Of a DNA stretch of 64,000 nt, positions 1-40,586 are shown in pieces. This DNA is from Belliella buryatensis (GTDB taxonomy: Bacteria; Bacteroidota; Bacteroidia; Cytophagales; Cyclobacteriaceae): positions 186,001 through 250,000 of the forward strand of contig NZ_FZOK01000004.1 of NCBI RefSeq assembly GCF_900188245.1. Direction: 5' to 3'. The notes beneath the pieces are model-generated. The model saw only the letters and a list, made by a program, of their open reading frames with translations, was not told where the DNA came from and made no database searches. The position numbers and the translations under genes are program-made. The first letter of the stretch is position 1. Each line of letters begins with the position of its first letter.

Positions 1-1
1 A

Positions 2-331: not shown

Positions 332-382
332 TGCAAAACCTATAAATACAAACCTGATGAATCATGTTTGAGTAATTAATGC

Positions 383-685: not shown

Positions 686-688
686 ATT

Positions 689-751
689 TTAATCCTGATC
701 TATAATTTCTTCGTGATCCACATGTTTCTTGATGTATTCAGTTGGACTCAT
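689..751 (-). CDS. Possible 20-residue peptide upstream of the DUF3784-like gene
   Basis: An ATG-started frame of 20 codons encoding MSPTEYIKKHVDHEEIIDQD, ending TAA. The next gene's ATG starts three bases after that stop. It is very charged and could be a leader peptide for the downstream membrane protein or a tiny protein in its own right. There is no independent evidence beyond the spacing and the protein-like composition. Confidence 0.3.
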   Translation of the reverse strand: MSPTEYIKKHVDHEEIIDQD

Positions 752-866
752 GTTAAACTAAAAATATACAGAAAGTTACCAAAAGACAATAAAAGAAGCC
801 GATCAATTTTTACAATCCTTCGGTTGGTTGTCATAGAAATAGGGTAAAAAAACCAGCTGATAGTTA

Positions 867-908
867 AAATCAAAAGCCTGATCATTTTGAAGATCAGGCT
901 TTTGATTT
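867..908 (-). terminator. Rho-independent terminator after the SDR gene
   Basis: A 17-bp near-perfect hairpin (arms 867-883 and 892-908, 8-base loop) with A/T-rich flanks on both sides. It lies seven bases past the SDR stop codon and can work in either direction. Confidence 0.8.
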
Positions 909-914
909 TTACGC

Positions 915-1634: not shown

Positions 1635-1672
1635 GATTTAGATTTAAAATTGAAAAGAATTAAAGGCACCTA

Positions 1673-2434: not shown

Positions 2435-2628
2435 ATCTGAAGATGAATTTACTTTTGAAGGTACATTTGTGTGATTTTAGGCTTGAATATAAGAATAAAT
2501 CTTTCAAATCAGTAATAATCGAAAGGAGATATAAATATTATCTTGGCAGTTTTTTATATTTCTATACATTCTTATTTCATTCAATAGCGACATTTAAGAA
2601 AAATTTAAAGATTGATATCAATAAAATT

Positions 2629-2648
2629 ATTTCATTTCATTATTTTTC
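2629..2648. promoter_or_regulatory. Candidate AgaR/DeoR-type operator
   Basis: The sequence ATTTCATTTCATTATTTTTC repeats a TTTCA unit. It resembles the TTTCRTTTCRTTT repeats known for proteobacterial AgaR operators. A very similar string lies upstream of the sulfatase gene. Binding is inferred. Confidence 0.4.
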
Positions 2649-2679
2649 TATTATATAAATATTTCATTAAGTTTGTTTT

Positions 2680-2693
2680 GCATAAAATTATGC
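2680..2693. repeat. 14-bp palindrome GCATAA-AA-TTATGC
   Basis: Six-base arms around a two-base centre in the agaR/susC intergenic region. It could be a second operator for a dimeric regulator. Confidence 0.3.
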
Positions 2694-2727
2694 AGCCTCA
2701 AATTTTGATTATTGGGTTATTGATTCG

Positions 2728-2762
2728 AAAAACCGATTGGAATTATTCCTCTCGGTTTTTTT
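2728..2762 (+). terminator. Terminator-like hairpin upstream of susC
   Basis: A nine-base stem (AAAAACCGA with TCGGTTTTT), a 15-base loop and a T run of seven. No plus-strand gene ends before it, so it may insulate susC or attenuate a long leader. Confidence 0.4.
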
Positions 2763-2920
2763 ATTGACCGATTACAGTTTTTAAAAATACATTTACTCAC
2801 ATTTAATGTTTCGTATTATTCTTTTTTAAATAGATTAAATTCATGTAAAATATAATTTACAGCAAAATAATATTTTATCTTCAGAAAAATTTCCACAAAA
2901 CTTTCATATACTTTTTATTT

Positions 2921-2928
2921 TATTTTTG
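2921..2928 (+). promoter_or_regulatory. Candidate -7 box (TATTTTTG) for susC
   Basis: Matches the Bacteroidota TAnnTTTG consensus about 100 bases before the susC start. No clear TTTG -33 element is seen at the right distance, and the region is T-rich. Confidence 0.35.
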
Positions 2929-3027
2929 TTTTGTAATTCTAATTAATATATTTAAAAAATTATTTCCACTTCCTTATATATCTTAGATATATAGAAAAGT
3001 CAATTTAAAACCAAAACCTTAATAACT

Positions 3028-5952: not shown

Positions 5953-5964
5953 TCTGACTTTATC

Positions 5965-7602
5965 ATGAAAAAATTATCATTTATAATTACATTATCATTG
6001 GGAGTTATGACATTCTTCTCCTGTGATATAGACAGGACTCCTTTTGATTCCATTACATCAGAGGATTTAGCAAATTCCGAAACGAGTGCTTTCAATGTGA
6101 CACTTGGGACATATAGCAGAATGCGTGCTTGGACTGAAAATTGGCATAGGTTATTTGAATATCCAGGTGATAATGTCGCTTTAAGTGGCACTACTTCTGA
6201 CCCTTTATTCTTCACTTACAATTTCAATCGAATTCCAAATTCAAGTAGAACAGCAGGGTTCTGGAGAAGTAGTTACCAAATTGTAGTAGCTACCAATCAG
6301 GTGATTGGAAATGTTCCAGAAGGAAGTTCTCCTAGTAACAACCAAATCTTAGCGGAAAACTACTACATTAGAGCATTGATGCACTTCAGTCTTGTTAACA
6401 TTTTTGGCAAGCCTTACAATCAAGGTGTTAATAATCCTGGTATTCCACTCAAACTCGATGCAGAGCCCCTCAACCATCCAATCAGATCTTCTGTAGGAGA
6501 TGTATACGGTCAAGTTGAAGCAGATTTATTAAAGGCCGTTTCATTGTTTTCTGAAAATAAGACGAATGTATATGCTTCTAAAGAAGCTGCTTGGGCATTG
6601 CTTTCGAGACTCTACTTATACAAAGAAGATAATCAAAAATCAGCTGAATATGCTGACCTTGTGATCAATTCAGGAAGATTCTCACTTTTACAGACAAACA
6701 GACTTGCTGATTATCCTAAATTGGCTCCTGAAAGTAATTCTGAGACTATTTTTGCTATTAAATTTGTAAAAGATGTAGATTATGAATCAAATGGTTGGTT
6801 TACCATTGGATCATTATATGCAAATGTACAAGGCTCAGGTTGGGGAGAAATGTATGCCTCAAGACCGTATCTGGAACTAGTAAGAGAGTTCCCCGAAGAT
6901 CAGAGAAATAAATTCATTCAACCAGTAGTTGTAGACCAAAATGTGACTTGGGGATTATTTGTAAGAAACAACCTAACTTATGGTTGGACTGTATTGACCC
7001 CTCAAGGAGAAGACTTTGCATATACTCACGGTGGAACCACCAAATTGGTGGAAAAGGAATTTAATGAAAGAGGCGGCATAAGCTACCATATTGACACAGA
7101 TGAGGGTAAAAAGCAAATCTTAATCGACAAGAGACTTGACCTGAGAAATAACTTCCCTAAATACTTCATCTTGAAATGTTCTGGCCAAGAAGATCAAGCT
7201 CACTTATGGTCTCCTGTGGTATCGAGACTAGCAGAAATGTACCTCAATAAAGCAGAAGCACTTGCAAAACAAGGACAAAATGCTGAAGCTCTAGAACTTG
7301 TTAATGTGATTAGATCTAGAGCAGGTATTCCTCAAAATGGACTTTACAACCTAGGAAATCTAGGTGGGAAAACTGTTCTTGACGTCGTATTGGAAGAAAG
7401 ACAACTAGAGCTTTCTTGGGAAGGCCATAGAAAAATGGATGTTTTCAGAAATGGTAGAATGATGGATAGACGCTATCCTGGAACCCATTTGGCTGGAAAC
7501 AACCCAAGACAAACAATTCTTGCGAATGAGAATGCTATCATAGAGTTTATACCAGAAGCTCAACTCCTTGTTCATGAAGGATTGACGCAAAATCCTGAGT
7601 AA
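5965..7602 (+). CDS. susD: SusD/RagB-family surface glycan-binding lipoprotein
   Basis: A 545-residue lipoprotein with an N-terminal signal and lipobox ending FFSC at about residue 20. SusD proteins sit on the outer membrane as a lid over SusC and bind the glycan. The TPR-like helical pattern is visible (AENYYIRALMHFSLVNIFG, AWALLSRLYLYKED, AEMYLNKAEALAKQG) and the C-terminal segment LEERQLELSWEGHRKMDVFR is diagnostic of the RagB/SusD domain. It lies 12 bases after susC. A strong terminator follows 10 bases after its stop codon, which likely sets expression of susCD above that of the next gene. Confidence 0.95.
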   Translation: MKKLSFIITLSLGVMTFFSCDIDRTPFDSITSEDLANSETSAFNVTLGTYSRMRAWTENWHRLFEYPGDNVALSGTTSDPLFFTYNFNRIPNSSRTAGFWRSSYQIVVATNQVIGNVPEGSSPSNNQILAENYYIRALMHFSLVNIFGKPYNQGVNNPGIPLKLDAEPLNHPIRSSVGDVYGQVEADLLKAVSLFSENKTNVYASKEAAWALLSRLYLYKEDNQKSAEYADLVINSGRFSLLQTNRLADYPKLAPESNSETIFAIKFVKDVDYESNGWFTIGSLYANVQGSGWGEMYASRPYLELVREFPEDQRNKFIQPVVVDQNVTWGLFVRNNLTYGWTVLTPQGEDFAYTHGGTTKLVEKEFNERGGISYHIDTDEGKKQILIDKRLDLRNNFPKYFILKCSGQEDQAHLWSPVVSRLAEMYLNKAEALAKQGQNAEALELVNVIRSRAGIPQNGLYNLGNLGGKTVLDVVLEERQLELSWEGHRKMDVFRNGRMMDRRYPGTHLAGNNPRQTILANENAIIEFIPEAQLLVHEGLTQNPE

Positions 7603-7612
7603 TTTAACAGTT

Positions 7613-7647
7613 AACAATGCCTGATTATATCAGGCATTGTTTTTTTA
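7613..7647 (+). terminator. Intercistronic terminator between susD and the DUF3472 gene
   Basis: A perfect 12-bp stem (AACAATGCCTGA, five-base loop, complement) followed by seven T residues. The next gene begins only 20 bases later with no clear promoter of its own, so partial read-through is likely. Confidence 0.85.
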
Positions 7648-7666
7648 TCTTTAAATACTTCATCAA

Positions 7667-9436
7667 ATGAAACAAATGATAAAACTATTGATTTTAGGAT
7701 TACTATCCTTTATTGGGTGCGCTGAACCTGAGACACCTCTTGATAATGATCAAACATCTTATGCTGAAGCTTTCATAATTCCACTGGGCGGAAACACTTA
7801 TCAAATAGCTGGTGAAGAGAATACAGAAATAACTCAAGATGGAATCAGGTCTTGGACCTCCCCTGCTACTGTATTTGGTGTGTTCTTTAAATCATCTGGT
7901 TCCCCTGAAGTAAGGCTCAATATTGACATAGAATCTCAGGAGGGTGAATCGGAAATTGAAATTAAAATCAATGATACTTCAAAAAAAATAACACTACAAA
8001 ATGGCAAATCAGGTATAGTTAAAGTCGGTGATTTCAAGTTGGAAGCTGGATATACTAAAATTGAGATCCAAGGTATTTCAAAAGGAGGAAGTAACTTCTC
8101 CAAAATTAAAGCAATCAAAATTGAGCATAATAACGACCTCTCCCCTTCCTTTGTAAAAGATAATCAAGACAATAATTTTTATTGGGGAAGACGTGGACCA
8201 TCAGTTCATTTAGGGTATCAGGTTCCTGATGGCATCAATTACAAATGGTTTTATAATGAAATGACTATCCCAGAAGGACAAGATCCAATTGGTTCATATT
8301 TCATGGCCAATGGATTTGCAGAAGGTTACTTTGGAATCCAAGTCAACTCACCCAACGAAAGAAGAGTACTCTTTTCGGTGTGGAGTCCGTTTGTTACAGA
8401 TAATCCTAATGAAATACCCGAAGACGAAAGGATTATAGTGCTCAAAAAAGGTCAAGACGTGTATACAGGTGAATTTGGTAATGAAGGCTCTGGTGGACAA
8501 AGTTACCTCAGATTCAATTGGGTAGCTGGAAATACTTACAAATTCATCAACTCCGTAGAGCCTGATGGAAACGGTAATACCATTTATACAGGATATTTCT
8601 TTGCTCCTGAAGTTGGAGAATGGCAAATCATTGCAAGCTTCAAGAGACCAAAAACCAATACTTGGTACAAAAGACCACATTCGTTTTTAGAGAATTTCAA
8701 TCCAAACTATGGTCATCAAGGGAGAAAAGTGCATTATGATAATCAATGGATTAGATCTACTTCTGGAAATTGGACTGAGCTCACCGAAGCTAGATTCACT
8801 GGGGACGCCATTGCTACCCTTGGCTTTAGAATGGACTATGCCGGTGGTTTTGATAATGGAAAATTCTACCTTCAAAACTGTGGGTTCTTTGACCAAAATA
8901 CTACATTGAACAGTATGCACAGCAGGTCTTCAAACAATCAGACACCACAGATTGATTTTGAATTTTTGGAAACATTAGGAGTAGCAATCACTACTCCTGA
9001 ACAAGTTCAAGAAATGGATAAATCCGAATGGGAAATCATATCTTTCAGTTCAGAAGAGACTTCTGGTGAGGGAGCTACTGGACGTGCAAAAGATGTGATT
9101 GACGGTGATGTAAATACCTATTGGCATAGCAGGTGGTCATCTGATGTAGCATCATATCCGCATCATTTTACAGTGGATATGTCAGAAAGCAGGGAAGTTG
9201 AAGGATTTTTGATCTCTCAAAGAAATGGATCCAGGAAAATCAAAGATTTCAAAATCTATGTAAGCCAAGACAATGAAGATTGGACTGTTTTAAAAGAGGG
9301 AAATCTTCAAAATAATGCTTCCAAACAAAATATAGTACTGACTGAAAAAACAACTTTTAGATACTTCAAATTTGAAGGTTTAAATGCACATGATGGACAG
9401 CAATTTGGCGCTCTTGCAGAGATAGGTGTATATTAA
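7667..9436 (+). CDS. Surface lipoprotein with DUF5077, DUF3472 and F5/8 type C (discoidin) domains
   Basis: A 589-residue lipoprotein (lipobox ending FIGC at about residue 18). Residues 30-150 look like DUF5077, a beta-sandwich. Residues 165-430 look like DUF3472 (FYWGRRGPSVHLGYQVPDG, then HQGRKVHYDNQW). Residues about 450-589 form a discoidin/F5-8C carbohydrate-binding module with the DGDVNTYWHSRW motif. No catalytic residues are evident. Lipid anchoring, the binding module and its place after susCD make it a probable surface glycan-binding protein (SusE/F-like role) for this locus. That role is inferred; DUF3472 has no known activity. Confidence 0.8.
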   Translation: MKQMIKLLILGLLSFIGCAEPETPLDNDQTSYAEAFIIPLGGNTYQIAGEENTEITQDGIRSWTSPATVFGVFFKSSGSPEVRLNIDIESQEGESEIEIKINDTSKKITLQNGKSGIVKVGDFKLEAGYTKIEIQGISKGGSNFSKIKAIKIEHNNDLSPSFVKDNQDNNFYWGRRGPSVHLGYQVPDGINYKWFYNEMTIPEGQDPIGSYFMANGFAEGYFGIQVNSPNERRVLFSVWSPFVTDNPNEIPEDERIIVLKKGQDVYTGEFGNEGSGGQSYLRFNWVAGNTYKFINSVEPDGNGNTIYTGYFFAPEVGEWQIIASFKRPKTNTWYKRPHSFLENFNPNYGHQGRKVHYDNQWIRSTSGNWTELTEARFTGDAIATLGFRMDYAGGFDNGKFYLQNCGFFDQNTTLNSMHSRSSNNQTPQIDFEFLETLGVAITTPEQVQEMDKSEWEIISFSSEETSGEGATGRAKDVIDGDVNTYWHSRWSSDVASYPHHFTVDMSESREVEGFLISQRNGSRKIKDFKIYVSQDNEDWTVLKEGNLQNNASKQNIVLTEKTTFRYFKFEGLNAHDGQQFGALAEIGVY

Positions 9437-9454
9437 TTTTACCTAATTGCTATA

Positions 9455-9498
9455 AAACAAGGCCGTCAAGTTAATTTTGACAGCCTTGTTTATTTTTC
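9455..9498. terminator. Bidirectional terminator between convergent genes
   Basis: The stem is AAACAAGGC plus GTCAA on the left arm (9455-9469) and its complement on the right (9477-9491) with one mismatch. T runs follow on both strands. It overlaps the stop codon of the FG-GAP lipoprotein gene. Confidence 0.8.
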
Positions 9499-12400
9499 AA
9501 TACCCAAGATCTTAAGGGGACCATTGTTCTGGATAATTAGAAACATTTCGTTTCCATCCTTTCTTTTCAACCTTTTGATATCTCTTACATCACCACGTAT
9601 ATCAAGGTTACAAATAGGTGTAGGCACATGTGACAATTTTCCCTTTTCTTGTCTTAAAAGCAATCCAGTACCACTATTCATCGCGCCCAAATCCACCATA
9701 AAAGGATACAAATTCCCTACAAGCAAAAACTCAGGATTATCAGTTCCAATTTGTAGTCCCCCTGTAATTGGCGCAATTTGAGCTTCAAGCGGCAATATTA
9801 TTTCTTGATAACCTTGGACAGAGCTTATCAAAGAAGTAGACTTCAATGATTCTAGGATTTTAAATTCCGCATGATCTATTTGAGGCCCCAAAATATCGCA
9901 TATTCCGGCTTCTGCATAATCCACATATTTGACGAATTTTTTCTTTAAATTATTAATTTGACTAAGCATTATATCTCTAGAGTAAATTGGAAATAGCTCT
10001 CCTTGAATATTATTTGTCATCAAGGAAAGTATATTGCCTGAATTATTAAAGTCACCAATAAATAACTTTATAGGCTTATCCACGTCAGCTTTTAGTTGAC
10101 TATTTTCCCCAAGATTCCCCAATAATAAATCAGGCTTACCGTCTTGATTGATATCTGAAATCATCAAACTTTGCCAAAAACCTTTTTTTACGTTTAAACC
10201 CAGGTCATTACTGATTTCCCTTGACTGATCAAGACTAATCTTCCATACCTGTACCCCCATAAACTCTCCAGTCAAAACCAGTTCTTTGCGACCATCACCA
10301 TCCATGTCATGCCACTCCCCTGATGTAATCATTCCTGCATTTCTAAGTTTACTGGGGGTTACATCCCTAAATATTAAATCATTTTGAGTACTCTCGTTTC
10401 TCAATAAAAAACTCCAGGGACTTACTCCGTATTGATCTGGAACAGACCTCCCTGCAATGAATAAATCAACTTTCCCATCTCCATCGAAATCATGTGCCAA
10501 TACCAACCCATTATTCCCTGTCAAATCAGGTAAAACATTTTCAGCTTTTTCAAAATTTCCATTCCCTTTGTTAATATATAGCCTATCCTGAAGGGTAGGA
10601 AAATACAAGCTAAACTCTGTTCCTCCACTGCTTACATATAAATCAAGAAGTCCATTCCCATTAGCATCGAAAAATACAGCTCCAGCATCCTTAAAATCAG
10701 CATCTAAAGTCCATGGCCCATGCTTGATTTCATCAAATCTCCCATCAGTATTACTTAAATATAAAGCTCCTGATTGTCCTATGGCACCCCCGATAAAAAA
10801 ATCATCATTCCCATCTCCATTTACATCACCAACAGCAGCTGCAGGGCTGACTTTGGAATGTTGGAAAAATGATAAAGGGTTGACTTTAAAATCTGTAAAA
10901 CTATTTTCCTGATGATAAAAAGACACACCTAAAGAAGTGGTATAGTCTTTAAAATTAAAATCTTGATTTTGAATCTTACTTTCTATCAAGAAATCTTTAT
11001 CAGAATCCGACTGATCTAAAACGTGAGTCTGATTAATGTGAATATTGAAAATCTCTGTTGTCTGTCGATCAGGCCAAATGATTTCGGCTTTTATTACTTC
11101 TTTATTTTTTCCAATCCCAAAATGAAGTACTGGATCTACTGAAGATTGATAACCTCTTACGGGATACAACTCCTTCACTTGAATAGATTTATCAGATAAA
11201 GTTATTTTGATCTTAGTTCCAATTGCTTGGCTATTTAAACCTACTCCTGAAAGTTTAAACATTACAAAGTTATTTCCAGTTTTTTCCTTTGCTTTATTAC
11301 GGAAAACTGTTGCAGGCTCATTGATGTTATTGATCACTAAATCCATACTCCCATCCCCATCTAAATCGGCATAAACCATCCCATTAGAAATTCTTGGAGT
11401 ATCGAAACCAAACTTCTTGGACTCGTTTGAAAATGTCAAATCACCTTTATTCATAAAAAGATAATTCCCAACTTTAGTACTAGGAATTCTCTTCACTAAC
11501 GCTAATAAATCGGGTTCCTGACCTTTTAATCTAGCTTCTTTTGCTGCATCCGCATAGGTATAATTCAAAAAATCCTTGTTGGTAAAGTCTCTTAAAAAGC
11601 CATTGGTGATGACCAAATCCTTTAAACCATCATTATCCATATCTACAAACAGTCCAGACCAACTCCAGTCAGTATTGGAAACGCCTGATAGCTGACCTAT
11701 TTCTTGGAATACCAAATCTCCGTTTTGATCAAGTCCTCTATTCAACTGAAGCATATTCCTCATGTATTGGTGATGGTAACCACTATCAACTAGTGCTTGA
11801 TAAAAATCAAATTCATCTCCTCCTTTTAGCAATTTTTGCCTTCTGTTATCTTCAGGAAGCATGTCTAGAGTAAATAGGTCTATTAGGCCATCATTATTGA
11901 AATCTGCTAGATCTCCACCCATAGAAAACTTGGATTGATGAGTCATAGCTGTTTTTGAAACTTCCTTAAATGTACCATCTGCATTATTGAGGTATAAAAA
12001 ATCTTGTTCATTGTAATCATTGGTAACAAAAATGTCAGGCCAGCCATCATTATTGATATCAGAAACCAAAACAGCAAGCCCGAAATTTAACCCATTGCCA
12101 ATAATCCCCGCTTCTTCACTGACATCAACAAACTTTCCATTATCATTTCTGAATAATTGATTCCCATAATATGGGTGTCTAAAAGCTCTGAGTTTTGATG
12201 TTTGACTTAATGGATTGTAAAAAGTCTTACCATGATTTAACAAAAACATATCAAGATCCCCGTCTCCGTCATAATCAAAAAATGCAGCCATAGTGCTATA
12301 TGTTCCTATAGCATCAAGTCCGTATTCCTTAGCGCTCTCGGTAAAAGTCAAGTCTCCATTATTGATATAAAGCTCATTTCTTCTGGAATATTCATCTCCT

Positions 12401-12813
12401 GGACCTGAATAACACAGATAAATGTCCAAAAACCCATCTCCATTTATATCTACCAAACTCACACCTGTAGCAAAATCTCTTCTGCCTTGAAGTCCAGATT
12501 GATTTGTTATGTCCTCAAACTTGAAATCCCCTTTATTAAGGTAAACCTTATTTTCTACCAAGTTCCCTATGAAAATCAAATCTGGTAAACCATTATTATT
12601 GAGGTCACCTGCTGCAACTCCACCTCCATTATATAAGTACTCATATGAAAGAATATTCAAACTATCATTTTCTATTATAGTGTTTTGAAAATGAATTCCT
12701 GAAAATTTCGGCTCAACAATTTCCAAATATTCATTGGAAACATCATCCTGCAAAGTGCAGGAGTTAAGCAAAAAAAGAAAAATCAATAGAGTGGGTACCT
12801 TTTTTGTATTCAT
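9490..12813 (-). CDS. FG-GAP/VCBS-repeat lipoprotein with ASPIC/UnbV domain
   Basis: A 1,107-residue predicted lipoprotein (signal ending LLNSC, about residue 19). It carries many calcium-binding FG-GAP/VCBS repeats of the form D-N-G-D or D-x-D-G-D (GDLNNNGLPDL, DINGDGFLDIYL, DYDGDGDLDMFL, DINNDGWPDIF and more), which fold as beta-propellers. An ASPIC/UnbV-like section lies around residues 515-590 (AIGTKIKIT, YPVRGYQSS, FGIGK). Such CRTAC1-like proteins are frequent partners of SusCD loci in Bacteroidota. They are thought to be surface binding or scaffold proteins, with no established enzyme activity. It is transcribed toward the susCD operon and appears monocistronic, because a terminator stands between it and the GH109 operon upstream. 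Confidence 0.85.
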   Translation of the reverse strand: MNTKKVPTLLIFLFLLNSCTLQDDVSNEYLEIVEPKFSGIHFQNTIIENDSLNILSYEYLYNGGGVAAGDLNNNGLPDLIFIGNLVENKVYLNKGDFKFEDITNQSGLQGRRDFATGVSLVDINGDGFLDIYLCYSGPGDEYSRRNELYINNGDLTFTESAKEYGLDAIGTYSTMAAFFDYDGDGDLDMFLLNHGKTFYNPLSQTSKLRAFRHPYYGNQLFRNDNGKFVDVSEEAGIIGNGLNFGLAVLVSDINNDGWPDIFVTNDYNEQDFLYLNNADGTFKEVSKTAMTHQSKFSMGGDLADFNNDGLIDLFTLDMLPEDNRRQKLLKGGDEFDFYQALVDSGYHHQYMRNMLQLNRGLDQNGDLVFQEIGQLSGVSNTDWSWSGLFVDMDNDGLKDLVITNGFLRDFTNKDFLNYTYADAAKEARLKGQEPDLLALVKRIPSTKVGNYLFMNKGDLTFSNESKKFGFDTPRISNGMVYADLDGDGSMDLVINNINEPATVFRNKAKEKTGNNFVMFKLSGVGLNSQAIGTKIKITLSDKSIQVKELYPVRGYQSSVDPVLHFGIGKNKEVIKAEIIWPDRQTTEIFNIHINQTHVLDQSDSDKDFLIESKIQNQDFNFKDYTTSLGVSFYHQENSFTDFKVNPLSFFQHSKVSPAAAVGDVNGDGNDDFFIGGAIGQSGALYLSNTDGRFDEIKHGPWTLDADFKDAGAVFFDANGNGLLDLYVSSGGTEFSLYFPTLQDRLYINKGNGNFEKAENVLPDLTGNNGLVLAHDFDGDGKVDLFIAGRSVPDQYGVSPWSFLLRNESTQNDLIFRDVTPSKLRNAGMITSGEWHDMDGDGRKELVLTGEFMGVQVWKISLDQSREISNDLGLNVKKGFWQSLMISDINQDGKPDLLLGNLGENSQLKADVDKPIKLFIGDFNNSGNILSLMTNNIQGELFPIYSRDIMLSQINNLKKKFVKYVDYAEAGICDILGPQIDHAEFKILESLKSTSLISSVQGYQEIILPLEAQIAPITGGLQIGTDNPEFLLVGNLYPFMVDLGAMNSGTGLLLRQEKGKLSHVPTPICNLDIRGDVRDIKRLKRKDGNEMFLIIQNNGPLKILGIEK

Positions 12814-12954
12814 TTGTTTTGATCATTATTGTTCAAACACATCATTCAAGTTCTGAGAAATTAATAGATAGTTATCTGAGATATTTAAAAAATGAATAGC
12901 AGGAAGGGGAAGCATTTCTAATTGAAAGATTCTTCAAAAGAGAGGCAAAAACTA

Positions 12955-12982
12955 TATAAAAACACCGAAGATACCTTCGGTG
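12955..12982 (-). terminator. Terminator of the GalNAc catabolic operon
   Basis: An eight-base stem CACCGAAG/CTTCGGTG with a four-base loop. On the minus strand it is followed by a T-rich tract. It sits about 45 bases after the GH109 stop codon. Confidence 0.8.
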
Positions 12983-13025
12983 CCTTTATCAACTAAACTA
13001 ATTAACCCTATAAATAAATTTTCTG

Positions 13026-14435
13026 TTAAATAACAACCTTTGTATTCCCTCCACCATTTAAGGTAATGTCTACTGGCTTATTGGTTTTCCAAGAGCCACC
13101 TGTAAAGTCAGGCACATCAATAGAATTAGACCTATGAGCCACCGACCATTCACTCAGTGGTGAAATGGCTGACCAGAGTGCCGCATCATAGACGTCTTGA
13201 TCCAATGGAAGACCGTTTCTCAAACAATCTACCAATCTCCACTCCATCATAAAATCCATTCCTCCATGACCTCCAATAGTCTTGGCCAACTCACCTACTT
13301 TTTTCACGATTTCTGGCGTATATTTTTCCTGAAGAACTTTCATTTCATCATCCTTGATCCATCCATGACCACTAGATACACGCTGCACTGGGTATTTTTG
13401 AGCAAATGCTTTGGTACCACTTAGGGCATGTAGCCTAGAATACGGTCTTGGAGATGTCACGTCATGCTGAACCATCATCGACTTGCCACGCTTAGTCCTG
13501 ATAATCGTTGTGTTCATATTACCTCCATACTGCTTTTCTACAAATGATGCGTAGAAATTATCCTGCTCTGCCAATTCTCTAGCCTTGTTCGCCATATGGA
13601 AATCTGCAGAAGATAAAGAGGTCAAGTAATCCATTTGATCTCCTCTATTGATATCCATCAACTGTGCAATAGGCCCTAATCCATGTGTAGCATAGAGGTT
13701 GCCATCTCTGTAGTTTTCTTTCAGCCTCCACATATCTTCATAGGCATTTTTGGCAAAGTTCAAATCCAAAAGATCATGAATATAAGCCCCTTCGGCATGT
13801 AGAATATCTCCAAAAAACCCATCTCTTGCCATATTGAGGGTCATCAATTCAAAAAAGTCATAACAACAGTTCTCAAGCATCATGCAATGCTTCTGAGTGC
13901 GTTCAGAGGTCTCTACCAATTGCCAGCACTCTTCAAGGGTCTTCGCAGCTGGCACCTCTACTGCTGCATGTTTTCCTGCTTCCATGGCATAGACAGCCAT
14001 TGGGACATGCCAATCCCAAGGTGTTGCAATATAGATCAAGTCTATATCATCTCTATCCACCATCTTCTTCCAAGCATAAGCATTGCCAGAGTATTTTGAA
14101 GGTTTATGCTTTGTCTTTTCCAGAGATTTAGTGACTTTATCTACTTTCTCCGATACAAGGTCACAAATTGCCACAATCTCCACCCCTTCTATTTTACTCA
14201 TTCTACTCACAGCTCCTGGCCCCCTCATACCCAATCCTATAAAACCAACTCTAACCTTATCTAGCTTGGGTGCAGCAAAACCAGACATGTTAAAATGTTG
14301 AAGTCTTTTTCTCTTAATCAATTCAGGTATGCGTTCCATCTCTTCAGCAGAACTGAAATTACTCATACCTGTACCAAATAGTCCAAGTCCTGCCAGACCC
14401 GAAATCTTTAGAAACTCTCTTCTTTTGTTGCTCAT
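13026..14435 (-). CDS. GH109-type NAD-dependent alpha-N-acetylgalactosaminidase
   Basis: A 469-residue protein with a twin-arginine export signal (NKRREFLK near residue 3, then a hydrophobic stretch). The Rossmann domain of the Gfo/Idh fold has VGFIGLGMRGPGAVSRM near residue 62. Family-typical segments are MMLENCCYD near 187, HAEGAYIHDL near 213 and THGLGPIAQL near 250. GH109 enzymes use tightly bound NAD+ to remove terminal alpha-GalNAc by an oxidation-elimination mechanism. This is the last gene of the seven-gene operon that also encodes GalNAc catabolism, which fits the assignment closely. Periplasmic action is expected from the Tat signal. A different Gfo/Idh glycoside oxidoreductase is the main alternative. 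Confidence 0.85.
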   Translation of the reverse strand: MSNKRREFLKISGLAGLGLFGTGMSNFSSAEEMERIPELIKRKRLQHFNMSGFAAPKLDKVRVGFIGLGMRGPGAVSRMSKIEGVEIVAICDLVSEKVDKVTKSLEKTKHKPSKYSGNAYAWKKMVDRDDIDLIYIATPWDWHVPMAVYAMEAGKHAAVEVPAAKTLEECWQLVETSERTQKHCMMLENCCYDFFELMTLNMARDGFFGDILHAEGAYIHDLLDLNFAKNAYEDMWRLKENYRDGNLYATHGLGPIAQLMDINRGDQMDYLTSLSSADFHMANKARELAEQDNFYASFVEKQYGGNMNTTIIRTKRGKSMMVQHDVTSPRPYSRLHALSGTKAFAQKYPVQRVSSGHGWIKDDEMKVLQEKYTPEIVKKVGELAKTIGGHGGMDFMMEWRLVDCLRNGLPLDQDVYDAALWSAISPLSEWSVAHRSNSIDVPDFTGGSWKTNKPVDITLNGGGNTKVVI

Positions 14436-36034: not shown

Positions 36035-36123
36035 AGAGAGTTGGGTGAGTGGCTTAAACCAGCAGTTTGCTAAACTGTCGTACGGGTAATTCCGTACCGG
36101 GGGTTCGAATCCCCCACTCTCTG
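36035..36123 (+). tRNA. tRNA-Ser(GCU)
   Basis: An 89-nt cloverleaf. The acceptor is AGAGAGT paired with ACTCTCT (36116-36122), the anticodon stem-loop is GCAGT-TTGCTAA-ACTGT with anticodon GCT, and there is a long class II variable arm (about 36078-36099) and a T-arm GGGGG-TTCGAAT-CCCCC. The CCA is not encoded. It reads AGY serine codons. Confidence 0.95.
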
Positions 36124-36134
36124 CAAAAATTGTT

Positions 36135-36208
36135 CGGGGTGTAGCGTAGCCCGGTATCGCGCCACATTTGGGATGTGGAGGTCGTAGGTTCGAATCCTGC
36201 CACCCCGA
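36135..36208 (+). tRNA. tRNA-Pro(UGG)
   Basis: A 74-nt cloverleaf. The acceptor is CGGGGTG paired with CACCCCG, the anticodon stem-loop is CCACA-TTTGGGA-TGTGG with anticodon TGG, and the T-loop is TTCGAAT. It lies 11 bases after tRNA-Ser. Its 3' end is the attachment site of the element that follows, and the gene is intact after integration. Confidence 0.95.
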
Positions 36209-36212
36209 CTTT
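36197..36212 (+). repeat. attL core (3' end of tRNA-Pro)
   Basis: CTGCCACCCCGACTTT, repeated exactly at 40571-40586. Twelve bases lie inside tRNA-Pro. The preceding AAT is also shared, with one mismatch between. Confidence 0.9.
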
Positions 36213-36230
36213 TATGCCTATTAAGTATCT

Positions 36231-36264
36231 GAAAACCAACATTTTATATGTTGGTTTTCTTTTT
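36231..36264 (+). terminator. Terminator between tRNA-Pro and the integrase, inside the element
   Basis: A perfect 12-bp stem (GAAAACCAACAT and complement, five-base loop) followed by TTTTT. It lies just inside the left end. It ends the tRNA transcript and shields the integrase gene from it. Confidence 0.8.
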
Positions 36265-36284
36265 AGTCCCCATATAAGTCCCCA
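36265..36284. repeat. Left pair of AGTCCCCA repeats (candidate integrase arm sites)
   Basis: AGTCCCCA at 36265-36272 and 36277-36284, a 12-base spacing. The same octamer recurs three times at the right end of the element. Confidence 0.55.
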
Positions 36285-36337
36285 AATTTAAAGATTCAAC
36301 CTATCTATTTTTTCAGGTTTTCATTTTATATTGGGGT

Positions 36338-37813
36338 ATGAATCTTTCTTTCAAACTCAAAACACAGGATAAAAATAGTAAAGGGGAATCTCCAATTTAT
36401 CTCCGTATGAGATATTCGGATTCCAATGGAAGAACTACGGAATCTTCTATCTTTTCCGGAGTTGATGTCCTACCTCAACATTTTAAGAATGGAGATATAA
36501 TCGTTAAAACTCCAAACTATTCCTCCAAAAGAATAAAACTGGATTCAATCATATCCGATGTTGAGAAAATCATTTCTGAACTTTATAGTGATGGTCTAAT
36601 CCCTTATCCAAAAGTGGTGAAGGAGAGATATACCGATATGAAAAAGGTGAAGGAAATGAGTTCTCCTAAATCAATCACCTTTTGGGGAGGATATAAAGAG
36701 TTTTTTGAAACAAAAAAACATAAATCCAGAGGTTATACCAAAACTTTTATCTCCCTCAAAAACCGTTTGGAGGATTTTGAAAAGTATAAAAGGATAAAGT
36801 TGAGTTTTGATTATGTGGTTGGAAATTCATTTCAATTTCAAAATCAATTCCAAAACTTCTTATGGGAAGAAAAGAAACTCTCCAATGGTTATATCAATAA
36901 ACTTTTTGAGAACCTTTCCAACTACTTATTCTTTTGTTTCAATTCTAATTATATCTCCAAAAAACCTTCCTTTAAGAAGAATGATACGGTAGAGAATTTG
37001 GAGAAAATCTATCTGTATGAAGATGAGGTATTGAAACTTTCCCAATCCAAACTATGGGATTATGTGGAGGGTAAGGATTATTCAAAAAATCCACATATCT
37101 ATTTTATTGAGGATGAGTTGTTGGGGACGAAGGGTGAGAAGTATGGAGAGGTAAGGAAAATAACCAATTGGGAGTTGGTGAAAGATGTTTTCCTCTTTCA
37201 GTGTTCCATTGGGTGTAGGTATAGTGATATATTGGAGTTTAAGGTCAATCATTTTGATTTTGGAGGAGATAAGGGAACATTCAGTTGGGTTCAACAAAAA
37301 ACGGATAAAAGGGTAAGTGTTCCCATCAATCCCATCAGTAGTGAGATATATAAGAAGTATTCTCGGGGTAAATCTCTCTCCCAAAACCTATTTCCAAAAC
37401 TCTCCAATCAAAAATTCAATAAATCCCTCAAACTCCTTTTGAAGGATTTGAAGTTTAATAGGTTGGTTTCCAAACCCAAAAAAATTGGTTCGAAGGTGGT
37501 TGATGAAGATAATAAGTTTCTTTGGGAGATGATTTCCTCCCATAGTGGTAGAAAAACCTTCATCAAAAATATGATAGATTTGGGGAGTATGGATTATATG
37601 ACGATAATGTCAATGACTGGACACAAAACTATCAGAGAGTTCCAAAAGTATGTTTCCGTTTCTCCTCACGATTTGGATAAAGGAAGGAAACTCTACAAAA
37701 AACTTCAATCCGAAGGGGGTGATGAGAATGAAGAACTTATTAAACTCTTTGAATCTTTGGAGGATGATAAAAAAAGTTTGGTCTTTTCTCTGATTCGTTC
37801 TTTTGTAAAATAA
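36338..37813 (+). CDS. int: Tyrosine recombinase/integrase of the element, alanine-free
   Basis: A 491-residue phage-type integrase of the large Bacteroidota form. An Arm-binding-like N-terminus (SFKLKTQDKNSKGESPIYLR) and a SAM-like core domain precede the catalytic domain. Catalytic residues are R294 (CSIGCRYSD), H402 and R405 (SSHSGRKTF), H429 (MTGHKT) and nucleophile Y438 (FQKYVSVS). It lies directly inside attL, as expected for a tRNA-targeting integrase, and should act at the tRNA-Pro 3' end. The gene contains no GC dinucleotide in 1,476 bases and the protein no alanine. Cys is always TGT and Ser never AGC. CpG, in contrast, occurs roughly 18-20 times. A terminator and AGTCCCCA repeats lie in front of it. 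Confidence 0.93.
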   Translation: MNLSFKLKTQDKNSKGESPIYLRMRYSDSNGRTTESSIFSGVDVLPQHFKNGDIIVKTPNYSSKRIKLDSIISDVEKIISELYSDGLIPYPKVVKERYTDMKKVKEMSSPKSITFWGGYKEFFETKKHKSRGYTKTFISLKNRLEDFEKYKRIKLSFDYVVGNSFQFQNQFQNFLWEEKKLSNGYINKLFENLSNYLFFCFNSNYISKKPSFKKNDTVENLEKIYLYEDEVLKLSQSKLWDYVEGKDYSKNPHIYFIEDELLGTKGEKYGEVRKITNWELVKDVFLFQCSIGCRYSDILEFKVNHFDFGGDKGTFSWVQQKTDKRVSVPINPISSEIYKKYSRGKSLSQNLFPKLSNQKFNKSLKLLLKDLKFNRLVSKPKKIGSKVVDEDNKFLWEMISSHSGRKTFIKNMIDLGSMDYMTIMSMTGHKTIREFQKYVSVSPHDLDKGRKLYKKLQSEGGDENEELIKLFESLEDDKKSLVFSLIRSFVK

Positions 37814-37913
37814 AACTTCCTGTTGGGGTAAAATTTATCTCCGGTATAAAAACCACCCCCTCTCAAATATCCTAAATTCAGATTCTTTCAATTACAAAAA
37901 ACCAAAAAAGGGA

Positions 37914-37942
37914 AGAAGGAAAAATCACCCACTTTTCCTTCT
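37914..37942. terminator. Hairpin downstream of the integrase gene
   Basis: AGAAGGAAAA and TTTTCCTTCT form a 10-bp stem with a nine-base loop about 100 bases after int. There is no strong plus-strand T run, so termination is tentative. Confidence 0.4.
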
Positions 37943-37959
37943 TTCAAAAATCCCGTGAG

Positions 37960-37977
37960 ATAGATAAAATTATCTAT
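37960..37977. repeat. 18-bp palindrome ATAGATAA-AA-TTATCTAT
   Basis: Perfect eight-base arms with a two-base centre, upstream of the serine recombinase gene. A candidate operator or half of a recombination site. Confidence 0.4.
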
Positions 37978-38066
37978 ATCCAAAAGTCAATTATTTTTGA
38001 AATAGTTGAAATAAGAATCGTGTTTATCGTGTATTATCGGAATGATACATATTGACACATATTTTT

Positions 38067-38100
38067 TGTTATCATTTAATTTACAAATTAAATCATTACA
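38067..38100. repeat. 34-bp palindrome with 2-bp centre, candidate serine-recombinase crossover site
   Basis: The left half TGTTATCATTTAATTT and the right half, read on the other strand, TGTAATGATTTAATTT match at 14 of 16 positions. They flank a central AC. A symmetric site with a 2-bp centre is the form used by resolvase/invertase enzymes. It lies 73 bases before the recombinase gene. An operator for the same gene is the alternative. Confidence 0.45.
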
Positions 38101-38173
38101 GCTAACCTGAGAATATAGTTGGAAATACCATAGATTTATTCTATTTTTAATCTGAAAGAAAAACAGAAACACT

Positions 38174-38791
38174 ATGGGTATGAAAATAAAGTATAACAGA
38201 ACCTCCACCATCAACCAAACTGGTGAAAGATATAAGTTGGATAAAGAGGTTTATGATTTAACACTTTTTGATAAAGGGGTGAGTGGTAAAATTCCATTTA
38301 AGGAAAGAGAGAAGGGGAAGGTATTGGTGGAACTCATCCAAAAAGGTGAAGTAGAAACTTTGGTAGTGGAAGAATTATCCCGTTTGGGTAGGAATACCGT
38401 TGATGTTCTCACCACTCTCCAATGGTTGGAAGAAAAGGGAGTGAATGTGGTTGTGAGAGGTATGGGTAATCTTCAATCCCATATTGATGGAAAAAAGAAT
38501 CCAATTTGGAATTTGATTACTTCTGTGATGAGTAGTATTTACCAACTCGAACGGGAACAGATTTTGGAACGGACTGAAAGTGGAAGAAGGATGTATGTAA
38601 TCAATGGGGGTAAATTGGGTAGAAAAGTTGGGAGTAATGAGAACCTCCAAACCTTCCTTCAAAAACCGAAAGTTAAACAAATCCAATCCCTTTTGGAAAA
38701 GGGTAAATCGGTGAGGGATATTTGTGGTAGGTTGGAAGTCTCCCCCACCACCGTAATAAAAGTGAAAAAATCCCTCTCCCTTACTGTTTGA
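38174..38791 (+). CDS. Serine recombinase (resolvase/invertase family), alanine-free
   Basis: A 205-residue protein of the small resolvase/invertase type. The nucleophile is S11 in YNRTSTINQ, the conserved arginines are in EELSRLGRN (R70, R73), a long E helix follows (YQLEREQILERTESGRR), and a C-terminal helix-turn-helix of about 45 residues contains VRDICGRLEVSPTTVIKVKK. Such proteins resolve multimers or invert segments between short symmetric sites. A fitting 34-bp palindrome lies just upstream. It has no alanine and its gene has no GpC. Having both tyrosine and serine recombinases in a 4.4-kb element is unusual; the serine enzyme may resolve dimers made during replication. Confidence 0.9.
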   Translation: MGMKIKYNRTSTINQTGERYKLDKEVYDLTLFDKGVSGKIPFKEREKGKVLVELIQKGEVETLVVEELSRLGRNTVDVLTTLQWLEEKGVNVVVRGMGNLQSHIDGKKNPIWNLITSVMSSIYQLEREQILERTESGRRMYVINGGKLGRKVGSNENLQTFLQKPKVKQIQSLLEKGKSVRDICGRLEVSPTTVIKVKKSLSLTV

Positions 38792-38963
38792 TTTTTACAG
38801 AGGGTAGGGATTTCCAATATCCATTTGATTCTGGGGAAGTGAGACCACCGATGAGGTGGTAATCCCCCAAATGGAGGTTGGGTTCAACCAAACCCTTTTC
38901 CTCCAACTCTTTGAGGGTGATTCCCCCCAATGATTTTTTGAGAGTTTTATTTTCCTTATTCAT
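38781..38963 (-). CDS. Small unknown protein of the element
   Basis: A 60-residue frame convergent with the recombinase gene, overlapping its last 11 bases. The product (MNKENKTLKKSLGGITLKEL start, then LVEPNLHLGDYHLIGGLTSP) has a protein-like composition, begins with ATG and, like all genes here, lacks alanine. It contains no motif that I know. A regulatory or accessory role is possible, and a chance frame cannot be fully excluded. Confidence 0.5.
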   Translation of the reverse strand: MNKENKTLKKSLGGITLKELEEKGLVEPNLHLGDYHLIGGLTSPESNGYWKSLPSVKIKQ

Positions 38964-39092
38964 ATACTCCTAATTTACGGAGAATTTTGGAATGATGGTG
39001 GGATAGCAGAAGTAATTAGTTTATACTATATTGATAGTCAATCTATTCTTCAAACAATGGGTATAAGTATAACCTATCAATATGTGTTCTGA

Positions 39093-39113
39093 AAAGTATA
39101 TTTGATATACTTT
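39093..39113 (-). terminator. Terminator-like hairpin after the excisionase-like gene
   Basis: AAAGTATA and TATACTTT with a five-base loop. On the minus strand a short T tract follows. Confidence 0.4.
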
Positions 39114-39119
39114 GGTTTT

Positions 39120-39326
39120 TTATACCCCTAACTCTCTGAATATTCTTTGATGAATCAATCCTTCCTCCCAATCAATCAAATCACTCTTTCTTACATATTT
39201 GGAATGGGTGGATATTTCTATCACGGGTAATCCCCTTTCTTTTACCCATAGTTCAAAAGTTGTTCTATCAATTCCATACATTTTCAGTATTTCTTTTTTT
39301 GGTATTCTTTCATCTACTTCTTTCAT
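39120..39326 (-). CDS. Excisionase-like HTH (MerR/AlpA-type) protein
   Basis: A 68-residue DNA-binding protein. The winged-helix core is IPKKEILKMYGIDRTTFELW (helix-turn-helix near residues 8-27), then VKERGLPVIEISTHSKYVRK, the wing typical of excisionase/AlpA proteins, and DLIDWEEG. In integrative elements such proteins direct excision by the tyrosine integrase or regulate its gene. It lacks alanine. It is the last gene of a leftward series starting with the HUH protein. Confidence 0.8.
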   Translation of the reverse strand: MKEVDERIPKKEILKMYGIDRTTFELWVKERGLPVIEISTHSKYVRKSDLIDWEEGLIHQRIFRELGV

Positions 39327-39428
39327 AAATTATAGTCTTAGTCAATTTCTTATTTTAATCGTTTTTAAGGAGTTCTATTTATTGGGTATGGATTTGTATT
39401 CCCAACAAAAGGTCTCTTCTCTATGGGG

Positions 39429-39659
39429 TTATTTTACCCCTCCTTTTTGATTTTTAATCCTTATCTGGTTCAGTATTTCCATCACCTTTATTATTCTATC
39501 TTCTTTGGTGGGTAGTGAATCCAATTCATCTTTTCTTCTATTGATTTGGTAATCCAATTCCAGTAGTTCATCGGTTAAACTTCTAATGAATTTTTCCGGA
39601 TTATCTTTAATCAATTTATTAAACTCTCTTTTCTTCATTTGGAGTGATTTTCTATTCAT
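39429..39659 (-). CDS. Small helical protein of the element, unknown
   Basis: A 76-residue, highly charged protein that looks like one long helix or coiled coil (FNKLIKDNPEKFIRSLTDEL, then YQINRRKDELDSLP and IIKVMEILNQIRIK). No known family is recognised. It is 78 bases after the HUH gene and probably in the same transcript. It has no alanine, in line with the element. It may be a replication accessory or regulator (inference). Confidence 0.6.
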   Translation of the reverse strand: MNRKSLQMKKREFNKLIKDNPEKFIRSLTDELLELDYQINRRKDELDSLPTKEDRIIKVMEILNQIRIKNQKGGVK

Positions 39660-39737
39660 CTGATGTAATTGTATGGTTTCTGTATTTTCTCTTTATTATG
39701 GGGTTGTTTTCTACCTCCTTTCTGATTTTACATATCT

Positions 39738-40133
39738 TCAAATCAGTGTAGTGGATTGTTCCTTTTTATTGATGTATCCTCTGTATTTCCATTCATCTTC
39801 TATGGGTTCTGTATGAATGAGACCGTATTTACCATTACATTCATCAAATACATTCAATCCCATTTCCCTTTTCTTCCATTCTCCGTTTCCAATGAATCGG
39901 GATAGGTGTTGGTATAGGTTCTCTTTATCTGTGTAGTGAAGTAGAAGATGGATGTGGTTTTTGTTTCCGTCTCTGTCTTTTTCAATTGAGTATTCTGTCC
40001 ATATCTTATCTTTCTTTTTCAGTTTTCTGTGAAGTGTCAGTATCTGTCTTTTCAGATTCTTCTTTGATGGGTTGATGTGTTTTCCATTCTCTGTGTAATC
40101 CCATTTTCTAATCATTATTCCAATCTTTTCCAT
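39738..40133 (-). CDS. HUH-type Rep-like nuclease of the element
   Basis: A 131-residue protein. The metal-binding HUH motif is H60-I-H62 in KNHIHLLLHYTD. Candidate nucleophile tyrosines are Y117 and Y120 in WKYRGYINKK. The N-terminal part TEYSIEKDRDGNKNH carries the acidic residue expected before HUH. Size and layout fit small rolling-circle replication initiators or Y1 transposases, and the Y-x-x-Y-I-x-K ending favours a Rep. It could nick one strand to start replication of the excised circle or transfer. No helicase domain is present. No alanine in the protein and no GpC in the gene. Confidence 0.6.
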   Translation of the reverse strand: MEKIGIMIRKWDYTENGKHINPSKKNLKRQILTLHRKLKKKDKIWTEYSIEKDRDGNKNHIHLLLHYTDKENLYQHLSRFIGNGEWKKREMGLNVFDECNGKYGLIHTEPIEDEWKYRGYINKKEQSTTLI

Positions 40134-40369
40134 AGGTGTAGATAATAGATAGGTATTATGGGGTGAATCAACCTCTCCCCATTCCTATAATTTTCATAAA
40201 CTCTCCGATTCATACCCTATAATAGTTCTCACTATACCGAATGAAGGATTTTTCATTTCTTACATCAAATCGGATTCTCTTTGGATATAAGTATGGTGTA
40301 ATGAGGGAAAACGATAAAAAAATAGGTGAATATTGAGGTGTTAAAATTTATCTCATTGATTATCAGTTT

Positions 40370-40397
40370 AGAAATTTTCAATACGATTAAAATTTCT
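40370..40397. repeat. Inverted repeat AGAAATTTT / AAAATTTCT
   Basis: Perfect nine-base arms around a 10-base spacer, in the noncoding region upstream of the HUH gene. A possible replication-origin hairpin or operator. Confidence 0.4.
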
Positions 40398-40403
40398 AAC
40401 AAC

Positions 40404-40435
40404 TTTTGTCTGTAAAATAAATTTGACTAAATTTG
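40404..40435 (+). promoter_or_regulatory. Consensus Bacteroidota promoter pointing across attR
   Basis: TTTTG (40404-40408), exactly 19 bases, then TAAATTTG (40428-40435). This is the best promoter match in the window. Transcription would start near 40442 and run over the AGTCCCCA repeats and attR, where the host terminator at 40587 follows. In the excised circle it would point toward int. Confidence 0.65.
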
Positions 40436-40480
40436 CACTTCCAAATCATCAAAGGATGTTTGATTAAAGGGTAAAACCTT

Positions 40481-40519
40481 TGGGGACTAACAGTCCCCAA
40501 ATTCAGGATTTAGTCCCCA
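40481..40519. repeat. Right-end AGTCCCCA repeats (one inverted, two direct)
   Basis: TGGGGACT at 40481-40488 and AGTCCCCA at 40492-40499 and 40512-40519. The first two form a perfect hairpin. Together with two copies at the left end they look like arm-type integrase sites. Confidence 0.55.
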
Positions 40520-40570
40520 AAAAATCTCAAAAACCCTTTAAAACACGAAATTTGAGGGGTAGTTATAATA

Positions 40571-40586
40571 CTGCCACCCCGACTTT
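40571..40586 (+). repeat. attR core
   Basis: CTGCCACCCCGACTTT, an exact copy of the attL core, with no tRNA upstream. It marks the right end of the element. Confidence 0.9.

Follow-up and report, generated by a model that had tools for sequence, protein, structure and literature searches.

Near-absence of the dinucleotide GpC in a family of tRNA-associated integrative elements of Bacteroidota

Results

The Belliella buryatensis element and its insertion site

The object of this work is a 64,000-nucleotide stretch of the genome of Belliella buryatensis (Cyclobacteriaceae; contig NZ_FZOK01000004.1, positions 186,001 to 250,000), referred to below as the window, which carries at 36213-40570 an integrative mobile element that is almost devoid of the dinucleotide GpC. 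The element, delimited by composition and segmentation and assigned to neither strand, lies beside a tRNA-Pro(TGG) gene (36135-36209) whose 3' end is overlapped by attL (36197..36212, plus strand), a 16-bp direct repeat CTGCCACCCCGACTTT of which attR (40571..40586, plus strand) is an exact copy. In a relative of the same genus, G398, the tRNA region matches C25:68922-69100 (100%) and the right flank matches C25:67108-68937 (97% identical); these two matches have exactly 16 bp in common and the repeat is present once at the locus, which means that G398 carries the empty site. The integrase gene beside the tRNA, the att repeats and the empty site identify the locus as an integrative mobile element at a tRNA gene, in agreement with the first-pass annotation, which had been made from the sequence of the window and had recognized a mobile element with att repeats.

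The reading frames of the element are open and six genes are likely. A tyrosine integrase of 491 amino acids (aa) without alanine is encoded at 36338..37813 on the plus strand and matches PF00589 (E 2e-8), PF17293 Arm-DNA-bind_5 (E 1e-5), the PHROG integrase and family profile A2. Repeats of the GTCCCCA type at 36266..36289 (plus strand), with partner repeats near the right end (about 40492-40523), are candidate arm sites of this integrase; the 12-mer AGTCCCCAAATT is present at 36277 and 40492, and the related element L084 has a similar repeat pair. The integrase gene is followed by a small serine recombinase of the resolvase/invertase type (205 aa, again without alanine; 38174..38791, plus strand; PF00239 E 1e-20), copies of which, 69-80% identical, are present in other GpC-free elements. 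The other genes are on the minus strand and encode a 60-aa protein of group K4 (38781..38963), present at 4 of the 17 GpC-free loci and at none of 36 normal ones compared; a 68-aa HTH_17 protein of excisionase/AlpA-like type (39120..39326; PF12728 E 2e-4, below the curated cut-off; PHROG excisionase E 0.003); a 76-aa protein (39429..39659) with a homologue in the Draconibacterium element L080 (cluster C12); and a 131-aa HUH-type candidate (39738..40133).

The latter is possibly a replication or nicking protein; an H-I-H motif can be seen by eye and it is 59% identical to an L080 protein which matches PF23343 REP_ORF2-G2P (E 0.005, below cut-off). The window protein itself has no Pfam match below E 0.1, and its structural model is of low confidence (predicted local distance difference test, pLDDT, 69); a fold search with this model gave nothing at E 0.001, and weak matches to the Rep domains of adeno-associated virus and geminiviruses appeared amid many unrelated folds. 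When the protein was searched for in 395 genomes of the class and in plasmid and phage collections, the window alone matched. No packaging or capsid-hijacking genes were found among the six window proteins with Pfam and PHROGs, and no relaxase or type IV secretion system genes in the window element with Pfam; for packaging genes, most cargo of the other elements described below was checked by Pfam only or not at all.

Between the att repeats GpC occurs 4 times in 4,358 bases where 121.8 would be expected from base composition (ratio 0.03), as compared to 1.12 and 1.14 of expectation in the left and right flanks. The four sites (36216, 38101, 39006, 40435) are all outside the six likely genes; both these positions and the expectation of roughly 120 had been reported correctly in the first-pass annotation. 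The GpC-free gaps within the element measure 1885, 1429, and 905 bp, outside it no gap in the window exceeds 243 bp, and segmentation by GpC returned 36225-40562 (3 GC, ratio 0.025). CpG is retained (47 occurrences, ratio 0.39, with flanks at 0.43 and 0.46), and the integrase gene has 18 CpG, within the 18-20 first estimated, and not one GpC; simple AT-richness was therefore rejected as the cause. Codon bias was rejected too, since a synonymous redraw of the six proteins at host codon usage gave a mean of 43.9 GpC (27-64 in 2000 draws) and none is observed. The removal of the word GC from the DNA of this family has removed nearly all alanine from its proteins: none of the 1,031 codons of the six window-element proteins encodes alanine, where 71 would be expected at the 6.9% of the host.

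GpC-free relatives in the Bacteroidota

The loss of GpC is a trait of an element family and not a peculiarity of one copy. We identified 15 distinct elements with islands of at least 2.6 kb and a ratio of at most 0.102, amounting to 102,674 bp in which 2,573.6 GC would be expected and 58 are present: the window element, L066 (identical to record L076), L075, L077, L079, L080, L081, L082, L084, L090, L092, L105, L115, L130, and L189. The segmentation being GpC-based, the island ends are partly set by the trait itself, and 7 of the 15 islands reach a contig or locus end. There are 3 GC in 15.0 kb in the element of Lentiprolixibacter aurantiacus and none in 8.8 kb of a Flavobacteriaceae metagenome-assembled genome (MAG) or in 6.5 kb of Draconibacterium sediminis; L078 (9.0 kb, ratio 0.19) is a leaky relative. 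The named carriers among the 15, several of which are MAGs with family labels as recorded, represent at least six families (Flavobacteriaceae, Chitinophagaceae, Flectobacillaceae, Prolixibacteraceae, Roseivirgaceae, and Cyclobacteriaceae), and a contig end free of GpC over 632 bp (L085) bears the label Crocinitomicaceae. In the 998 kb of other fetched DNA, i.e., loci without islands, some of them overlapping and with L001-L065 excluded, no GpC-free run is longer than 549 bp except one of 721 bp in L083. The presence of the same lineage across the Bacteroidota had been missed at first, as had the purge of further restriction-type words reported below. An assembly or editing artefact in this copy, which the first-pass annotation had allowed for, is contradicted by the occurrence of the trait in isolates and MAGs from independent projects, by its ending at att-like repeats in three loci, by the open frames of the window element and by the relative with an empty site; we regard artefact or chance as a negligible prospect.

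Further loci were found through the small serine recombinase, and these share the resolvase gene by construction. A search of 390 genomes of the order matched 37 genomes at E 1e-15 or better; the closest resolvase beyond the window (76% identical) is that of Aquirufa rosea, a member of another family, in a 6.1-kb element at tRNA-Phe with a ratio of 0.08. A scan with a resolvase alignment, using one genome per species, gave 65 loci, and a tree was built of 59 rows (58 of these loci and the window, 7 partial-match loci being omitted); 17 of these rows contain one GC or none, 3 are low in GpC, and the remaining 39 are normal. Twelve of the 17 GpC-free rows form one clade with L083 (8 GC) as its single GC-containing member; the other five are placed elsewhere in the tree (L090 and L092; L095, L105 and L115), and strongly supported branches require at least four changes of GpC state. 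Relatives of normal GpC had been named at the outset as a finding that could overturn the proposal, and the tree gives a divided answer: close relatives are GpC-free with the exception of L083 (69% identity), whereas distant resolvase relatives (47-59% identity) are mostly normal, with five GpC-free and three low. The L083 resolvase (L083:8001-8591), nested as it is among GC-free resolvases, looks like a copy released from the pressure and could perhaps be used as a clock. If L083 is read as a relaxed copy, as its position suggests, the pressure must otherwise be continuous.

Several loci are partly GpC-poor. The genome of the window host has two tRNA-linked regions of this kind, L071 (G000:C25, about 1-9500; tRNA-Asn) and L069 (G000:C13, about 8000-11000; tRNA-Ala), with 1-kb ratios of 0.16-0.81 and 0.36-0.66. 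In Chryseobacterium echinoideorum two GpC-poor blocks (L091:4388-5613 and 11264-13737; ratio 0.14) are arranged around ordinary DNA, possibly a mosaic of purged backbone and new cargo. Resolvase relatives with roughly normal GpC were also found on contigs labelled Atribacteria and Ignavibacteriales (L118 and L088), labels which reflect either wider transfer or a binning error.

Integrases, integration sites and cargo

A profile built from six GpC-free or leaky integrases was run on 295 genomes and hit 28 places. The three strongest were the window, G088 (E 5e-135) and G268 (E 1e-86), with 0, 0, and 1 GC in the integrase gene, while at the remaining 25 places (E 2e-37 or weaker) the GpC ratio over the whole locus is 0.54-1.27. 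The trait thus tracks the integrase family, as it would if the cause were internal to the element, i.e., if its own recombinase, replication protein or a chromatin-like protein misfired at GpC or discriminated against it. This explanation is nevertheless an improbable one, given that the enzyme of the free elements is a tyrosine integrase in some and a large serine recombinase in others (PF07508 in L092, where it replaces the tyrosine integrase; L077 and L082 have proteins alignable to it at 26-29% identity), that the L189 resolvase is just 34% identical to that of the window, that within 5 kb no gene other than the query resolvase is common to all 17 free loci, and that 39 of the 59 resolvase rows have normal GpC. 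The G088 element, at tRNA-Gln, has no GC in 5.7 kb, and its resolvase is 34% identical to that of the window.

The tRNA genes at island ends are those for Pro, Phe, Met, Asp, and Gln. Three hosts from different families have a tRNA-Ser(GCT)/tRNA-Pro(TGG) pair next to a GpC-free stretch (window 36035-36209; L084 6255-6433; L095 953-1138). Att-like repeats were detected at both ends in three of eight loci examined (window, L066, L080), and in these three the GpC-free stretch starts and ends within about 40 bp of the repeats.

The cargo is purged too. It includes type I restriction-modification (R-M) genes in L130 and L115 and, clustered, in L075, a ParB-like DNA methylase in L075, AbiH in L080, and DUF3427-HNH and NUDIX proteins in L079; out of ten cargo proteins submitted to PADLOC, just two type I R-M proteins were recognized. 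The open reading frames (ORFs) behind the cargo, coding/non-coding and shared-gene counts are mechanical and include spurious ones. On this basis the ORFs of 18 islands encode 31,731 aa, of which 72 are alanine; the leaky L066, L071, L078, L082, and L126 account for 41 of these. In L082 (1525-3354) the alanines are concentrated in some genes, with 6 and 5 in two ORFs, which are perhaps cargo caught in the middle of being purged. Another cargo gene, in the GpC-free element L130 (3513-5216), encodes a DUF285 repeat protein that has a B-repeat domain. A 514-aa protein of L066 (6893-8437) without Pfam or PADLOC match clusters with ORFs of L078 and L081; inspection of its sequence by eye suggests a nuclease-like C-terminal domain.

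Probable selection on DNA and rival processes

In the 15 islands coding DNA has 43 GC against 1999 expected (2.2%) and non-coding DNA 18 against 450 (4.0%), while divergent intergenic DNA has 5 against 84 (6%), a purge of about 17-fold. The proposal of the first-pass annotation that the loss operates at the level of the nucleic acid, extending to intergenic DNA and codon junctions, is thereby borne out, and selection at this level is well supported. Selection could also act on RNA, through a ribonuclease toxin or defence enzyme cutting GC in transcripts, the self-complementarity of GC making both strands look alike. The somewhat harder purge of coding DNA, although it comes from mechanical ORFs and carries no significance test, would fit such an agent, as would the location of the residual GCs of the window element outside its six likely genes. 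On the other hand, divergent intergenic DNA, presumably untranscribed in part, is purged as well, and DNA-type palindromes (GATC, CATG, CTAG) are also banned in many elements, so we hold an RNA-level cause to be decidedly unlikely.

The replacement of alanine was followed in HsdM, where columns with alanine in at least 60% of 17 normal homologues (out of 20 fetched normal loci, L150, L158, and L159 being excluded) were compared with three related GpC-free copies. The 29 cells of the GpC-free copies hold G in 11, S in 8, C in 7, V in 2, and I in 1, with neither A nor T, so that Gly, Ser or Cys has taken the place of a conserved alanine in 26 of the 29. Normal copies, left out singly, kept alanine in 141 of 177 cells at such columns, and their 36 non-alanine cells have G 8, S 7, Q 7, C 6, V 3, P 3, and T 2. 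As normal homologues depart from alanine to similar residues, the changes in the free copies look like ordinary tolerated replacement, which argues for selection and not for deamination at GpC.

Such deamination is the core of a mutational explanation, in which a cytosine deaminase, or GpC methylation followed by deamination, turns GC into GT or AC when the DNA is single-stranded, and it had been among the first suggestions for this DNA. A process of this kind would hit both strands and everywhere, and traces compatible with it exist: at four of the eight GC of L083 the majority of free relatives read GT or AC, at seven of eight at least one relative does, and in the 11 of 15 islands with enough flank the mean AC/GT ratio rises from 0.81 in flanks to 0.95. 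This rise is smaller than that of CC/GG (1.13 to 1.47) and GA/TC (0.95 to 1.29) in the same islands, in which CG falls from 0.86 to 0.57; in the window element GT/AC stands at just 1.02 of the host level and GG/CC at 1.21. Mutation also predicts Val and Thr in place of alanine, of which HsdM shows 2 and 0 in 29 cells, and it leaves the loss of GATC, CATG, CTAG, and CAAG unexplained. GpC deamination was rejected on the HsdM replacements and on the order of these rises, and GpC-directed mutation in general appears very unlikely.

Other avoided words

Counts of 617 REBASE sites in the window element were compared with its own first-order chain, which already includes the GpC loss; the scan is uncorrected for the number of sites. 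Words with zero occurrences (expected numbers in brackets) are GATC (20.8), CATG (12.5), CCNGG (8.5), CTAG (8.4), GTNNAC (8.0), GTNAC (7.6), GGGTC (7.4), GGNCC (7.2), GTAC (6.2), GAGTC (5.4), and ACGT (3.1), the weaker of which (ACGT, GAGTC) may be due to chance among 617 sites. CAAG/CTTG is likewise absent against 28.6 expected, while GANTC (20, expected 22.2) and CCGG (3, expected 4.4) are kept. The missing words look like a record of restriction. With strong avoidance defined as at most 0.15 of expectation, 13 of 16 elements strongly avoid particular tetramers, so that known R-M target words are depleted below composition in these elements. The tetramers differ between elements: GATC is avoided in 11 of 16, and CATG, CTAG, GTAC, CAAG, CGAC, TCGA, ACGT, GGAC or CCAG in some. 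GpC is the constant avoided word, the tetramers vary. The idea that GpC is the word whose loss pays best against the whole set of known R-M sites was rejected, as it ranks below GA/TC, AG/CT, CC/GG, CA/TG, and AC/GT.

Residual GpC contexts

All NGCN contexts are purged. Among 105 residual GCs, classified by contexts which were chosen post hoc after the counts had been seen, RGCY numbers 13 against expectations of 32.1 (transition), 32.8 (composition), and 27.7 (flank null), and YGCR 38 against 18.8, 20.4, and 22.5, respectively; the chi-square p values under the three nulls are 2e-7, 1e-6, and 9e-5. In 11 islands the palindrome TGCA is enriched among residual sites (27, expected 9.7) and the asymmetric AGCC is rare (3, expected 13.7), and on these grounds avoidance of palindromic R-M sites only was rejected as the explanation for the GpC loss.

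The purge of every NGCN bears on a further model, modification-dependent restriction, in which a host marks the DNA as GmC and McrBC-type enzymes of the next host destroy it, so that only GpC-free DNA survives serial transfer. McrBC recognizes RmC. McrC (PF10117) is present in four of seven carrier genomes, full-length in three and partial in the window host, but C5-methyltransferases (PF00145) were not found in five of seven, window host included. The model would moreover need many methyltransferases, or one specific for GpC, to purge all NGCN, and ApC is kept in the window element (145, ratio 0.66, flanks about 0.74). The model is possible but not general, and as the cause of the trait we consider it unlikely.

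Discussion

Our explanation is that the DNA of these elements is kept free of GpC by selection on the DNA itself, probably during the mobile phase, and that the agent would be a nuclease barrier which recognizes GpC itself with a preference for R-GC-Y. Such a barrier would be met on entering or leaving cells, as a host restriction-type defence or as a nuclease of a predatory or helper phage; every GpC would add to the chance of cleavage and survivors would converge on zero. The element-specific avoidance of tetramers fits this regime, ordinary R-M systems acting in addition. Evasion of a GpC-sensing nuclease, one of the options listed in the first-pass annotation, is the one that fits best, and a GpC-reading nuclease barrier is in our judgement the likeliest agent. 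That a family of small Bacteroidota integrative elements, targeted mostly to tRNA genes, evades such a barrier we put at about even odds. The wider reading, that Bacteroidota or their phages have an undescribed barrier reading bare GpC as non-self, which one mobile-element family has beaten by converting all its genes and cargo to an alanine-free dialect shared in gene exchange, falls somewhat short of that.

A number of observations weigh against this explanation. Three Bacteroidota phages have normal GpC ratios (1.47, 1.32, 0.92), which means that not all mobile DNA can be subject to the barrier. That the pressure falls on Bacteroidota mobile DNA as a whole was in fact rejected on the basis of these phages and three other resolvase-bearing records (0.92-1.47 overall), and is further contradicted by the mostly normal distant resolvase relatives. 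Viral contigs scanned with the HUH protein, the integrase, the resolvase and the alignments yielded one locus only, of normal GpC (1.03). No strongly avoided tetramer was detected in three of the 16 elements (L075, L080, L090), and att-like repeats at both ends were not found in L078, L084, L090, L092, or L095. As GC is contained in only 28% of 612 REBASE sites, other words would be cheaper to lose if restriction in general were the cause. The ranking of residual contexts, besides its post hoc classes, draws 61 of the 105 GCs from two leaky islands (L078 and L082), is not seen in ten intermediate relatives (RGCY share 0.232, flanks 0.236), and concerns a YGCR class that is itself rare (38 residual sites) and purged too, though enriched among residuals. 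Finally, none of the hosts was found to have a nuclease or methyltransferase specific for GpC, and no homology search for one was made.

If a GpC-reading barrier is the cause, a new defence or phage nuclease is indicated, and the family offers a selection assay that is ready to use. Bacteroidota may also take up GpC-free DNA more readily, and genetic work on laboratory strains would benefit from this. The elements also show how far a constraint on DNA can bend protein, with type I methyltransferases, integrases and recombinases that have no or almost no alanine. Should a GpC-specific restriction system be found, the family would be its extreme case, and the combination of a banned dinucleotide with a near-absent amino acid would still be distinctive. 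In the open-licence papers searched we found no earlier description of an element without a dinucleotide over its whole length, nor of a gene pool dispensing with a common amino acid, in accordance with the statement of the first-pass annotation that no such element was known. The GpC-free property is real, family-wide and, as far as this literature search reaches, undescribed.

Comparison with known systems

Integrative elements targeted to tRNA genes have tRNA att sites, a tyrosine integrase, a helix-turn-helix (HTH) protein and variable cargo including defence genes. The window element shares with them the tRNA att site, the tyrosine integrase and the HTH protein; unlike them it is GpC-free and alanine-free, has a small serine recombinase inside, and no capsid, packaging or relaxase gene was recognized in the window copy.

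A nuclease of the specificity proposed here is CviJI of chlorella viruses, which cuts RGCY and under relaxed conditions also PyGCPy and PuGCPu (PMC7019647, PMC3681635). The likeness lies in the recognition of GpC with a preference for RGCY, and the residual contexts of the islands rank alike; by analogy, this ranking is a hint that a nuclease reads GpC. Two differences count against the parallel: CviJI is known from algal viruses and not from Bacteroidota, and the relaxed activity given in one review (PMC7019647) omits PyGCPu, so that a tolerance of YGCR would be expected where the islands have purged this context too. The other paper (PMC3681635) gives the relaxed site as plain GC.

Among the published work consulted, the nearest frame is the avoidance of restriction targets by small broad-host plasmids (Shaw et al., 2023; PMC10359461). 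There, as here, mobile DNA loses short words that are targeted by R-M systems. The plasmid avoidance is partial and concerns k-mers of 4-6 bp, and the word "dinucleotide" is absent from the main text of that paper, whereas the present family has essentially lost a bare dinucleotide, over as much as 15 kb, and alanine along with it.

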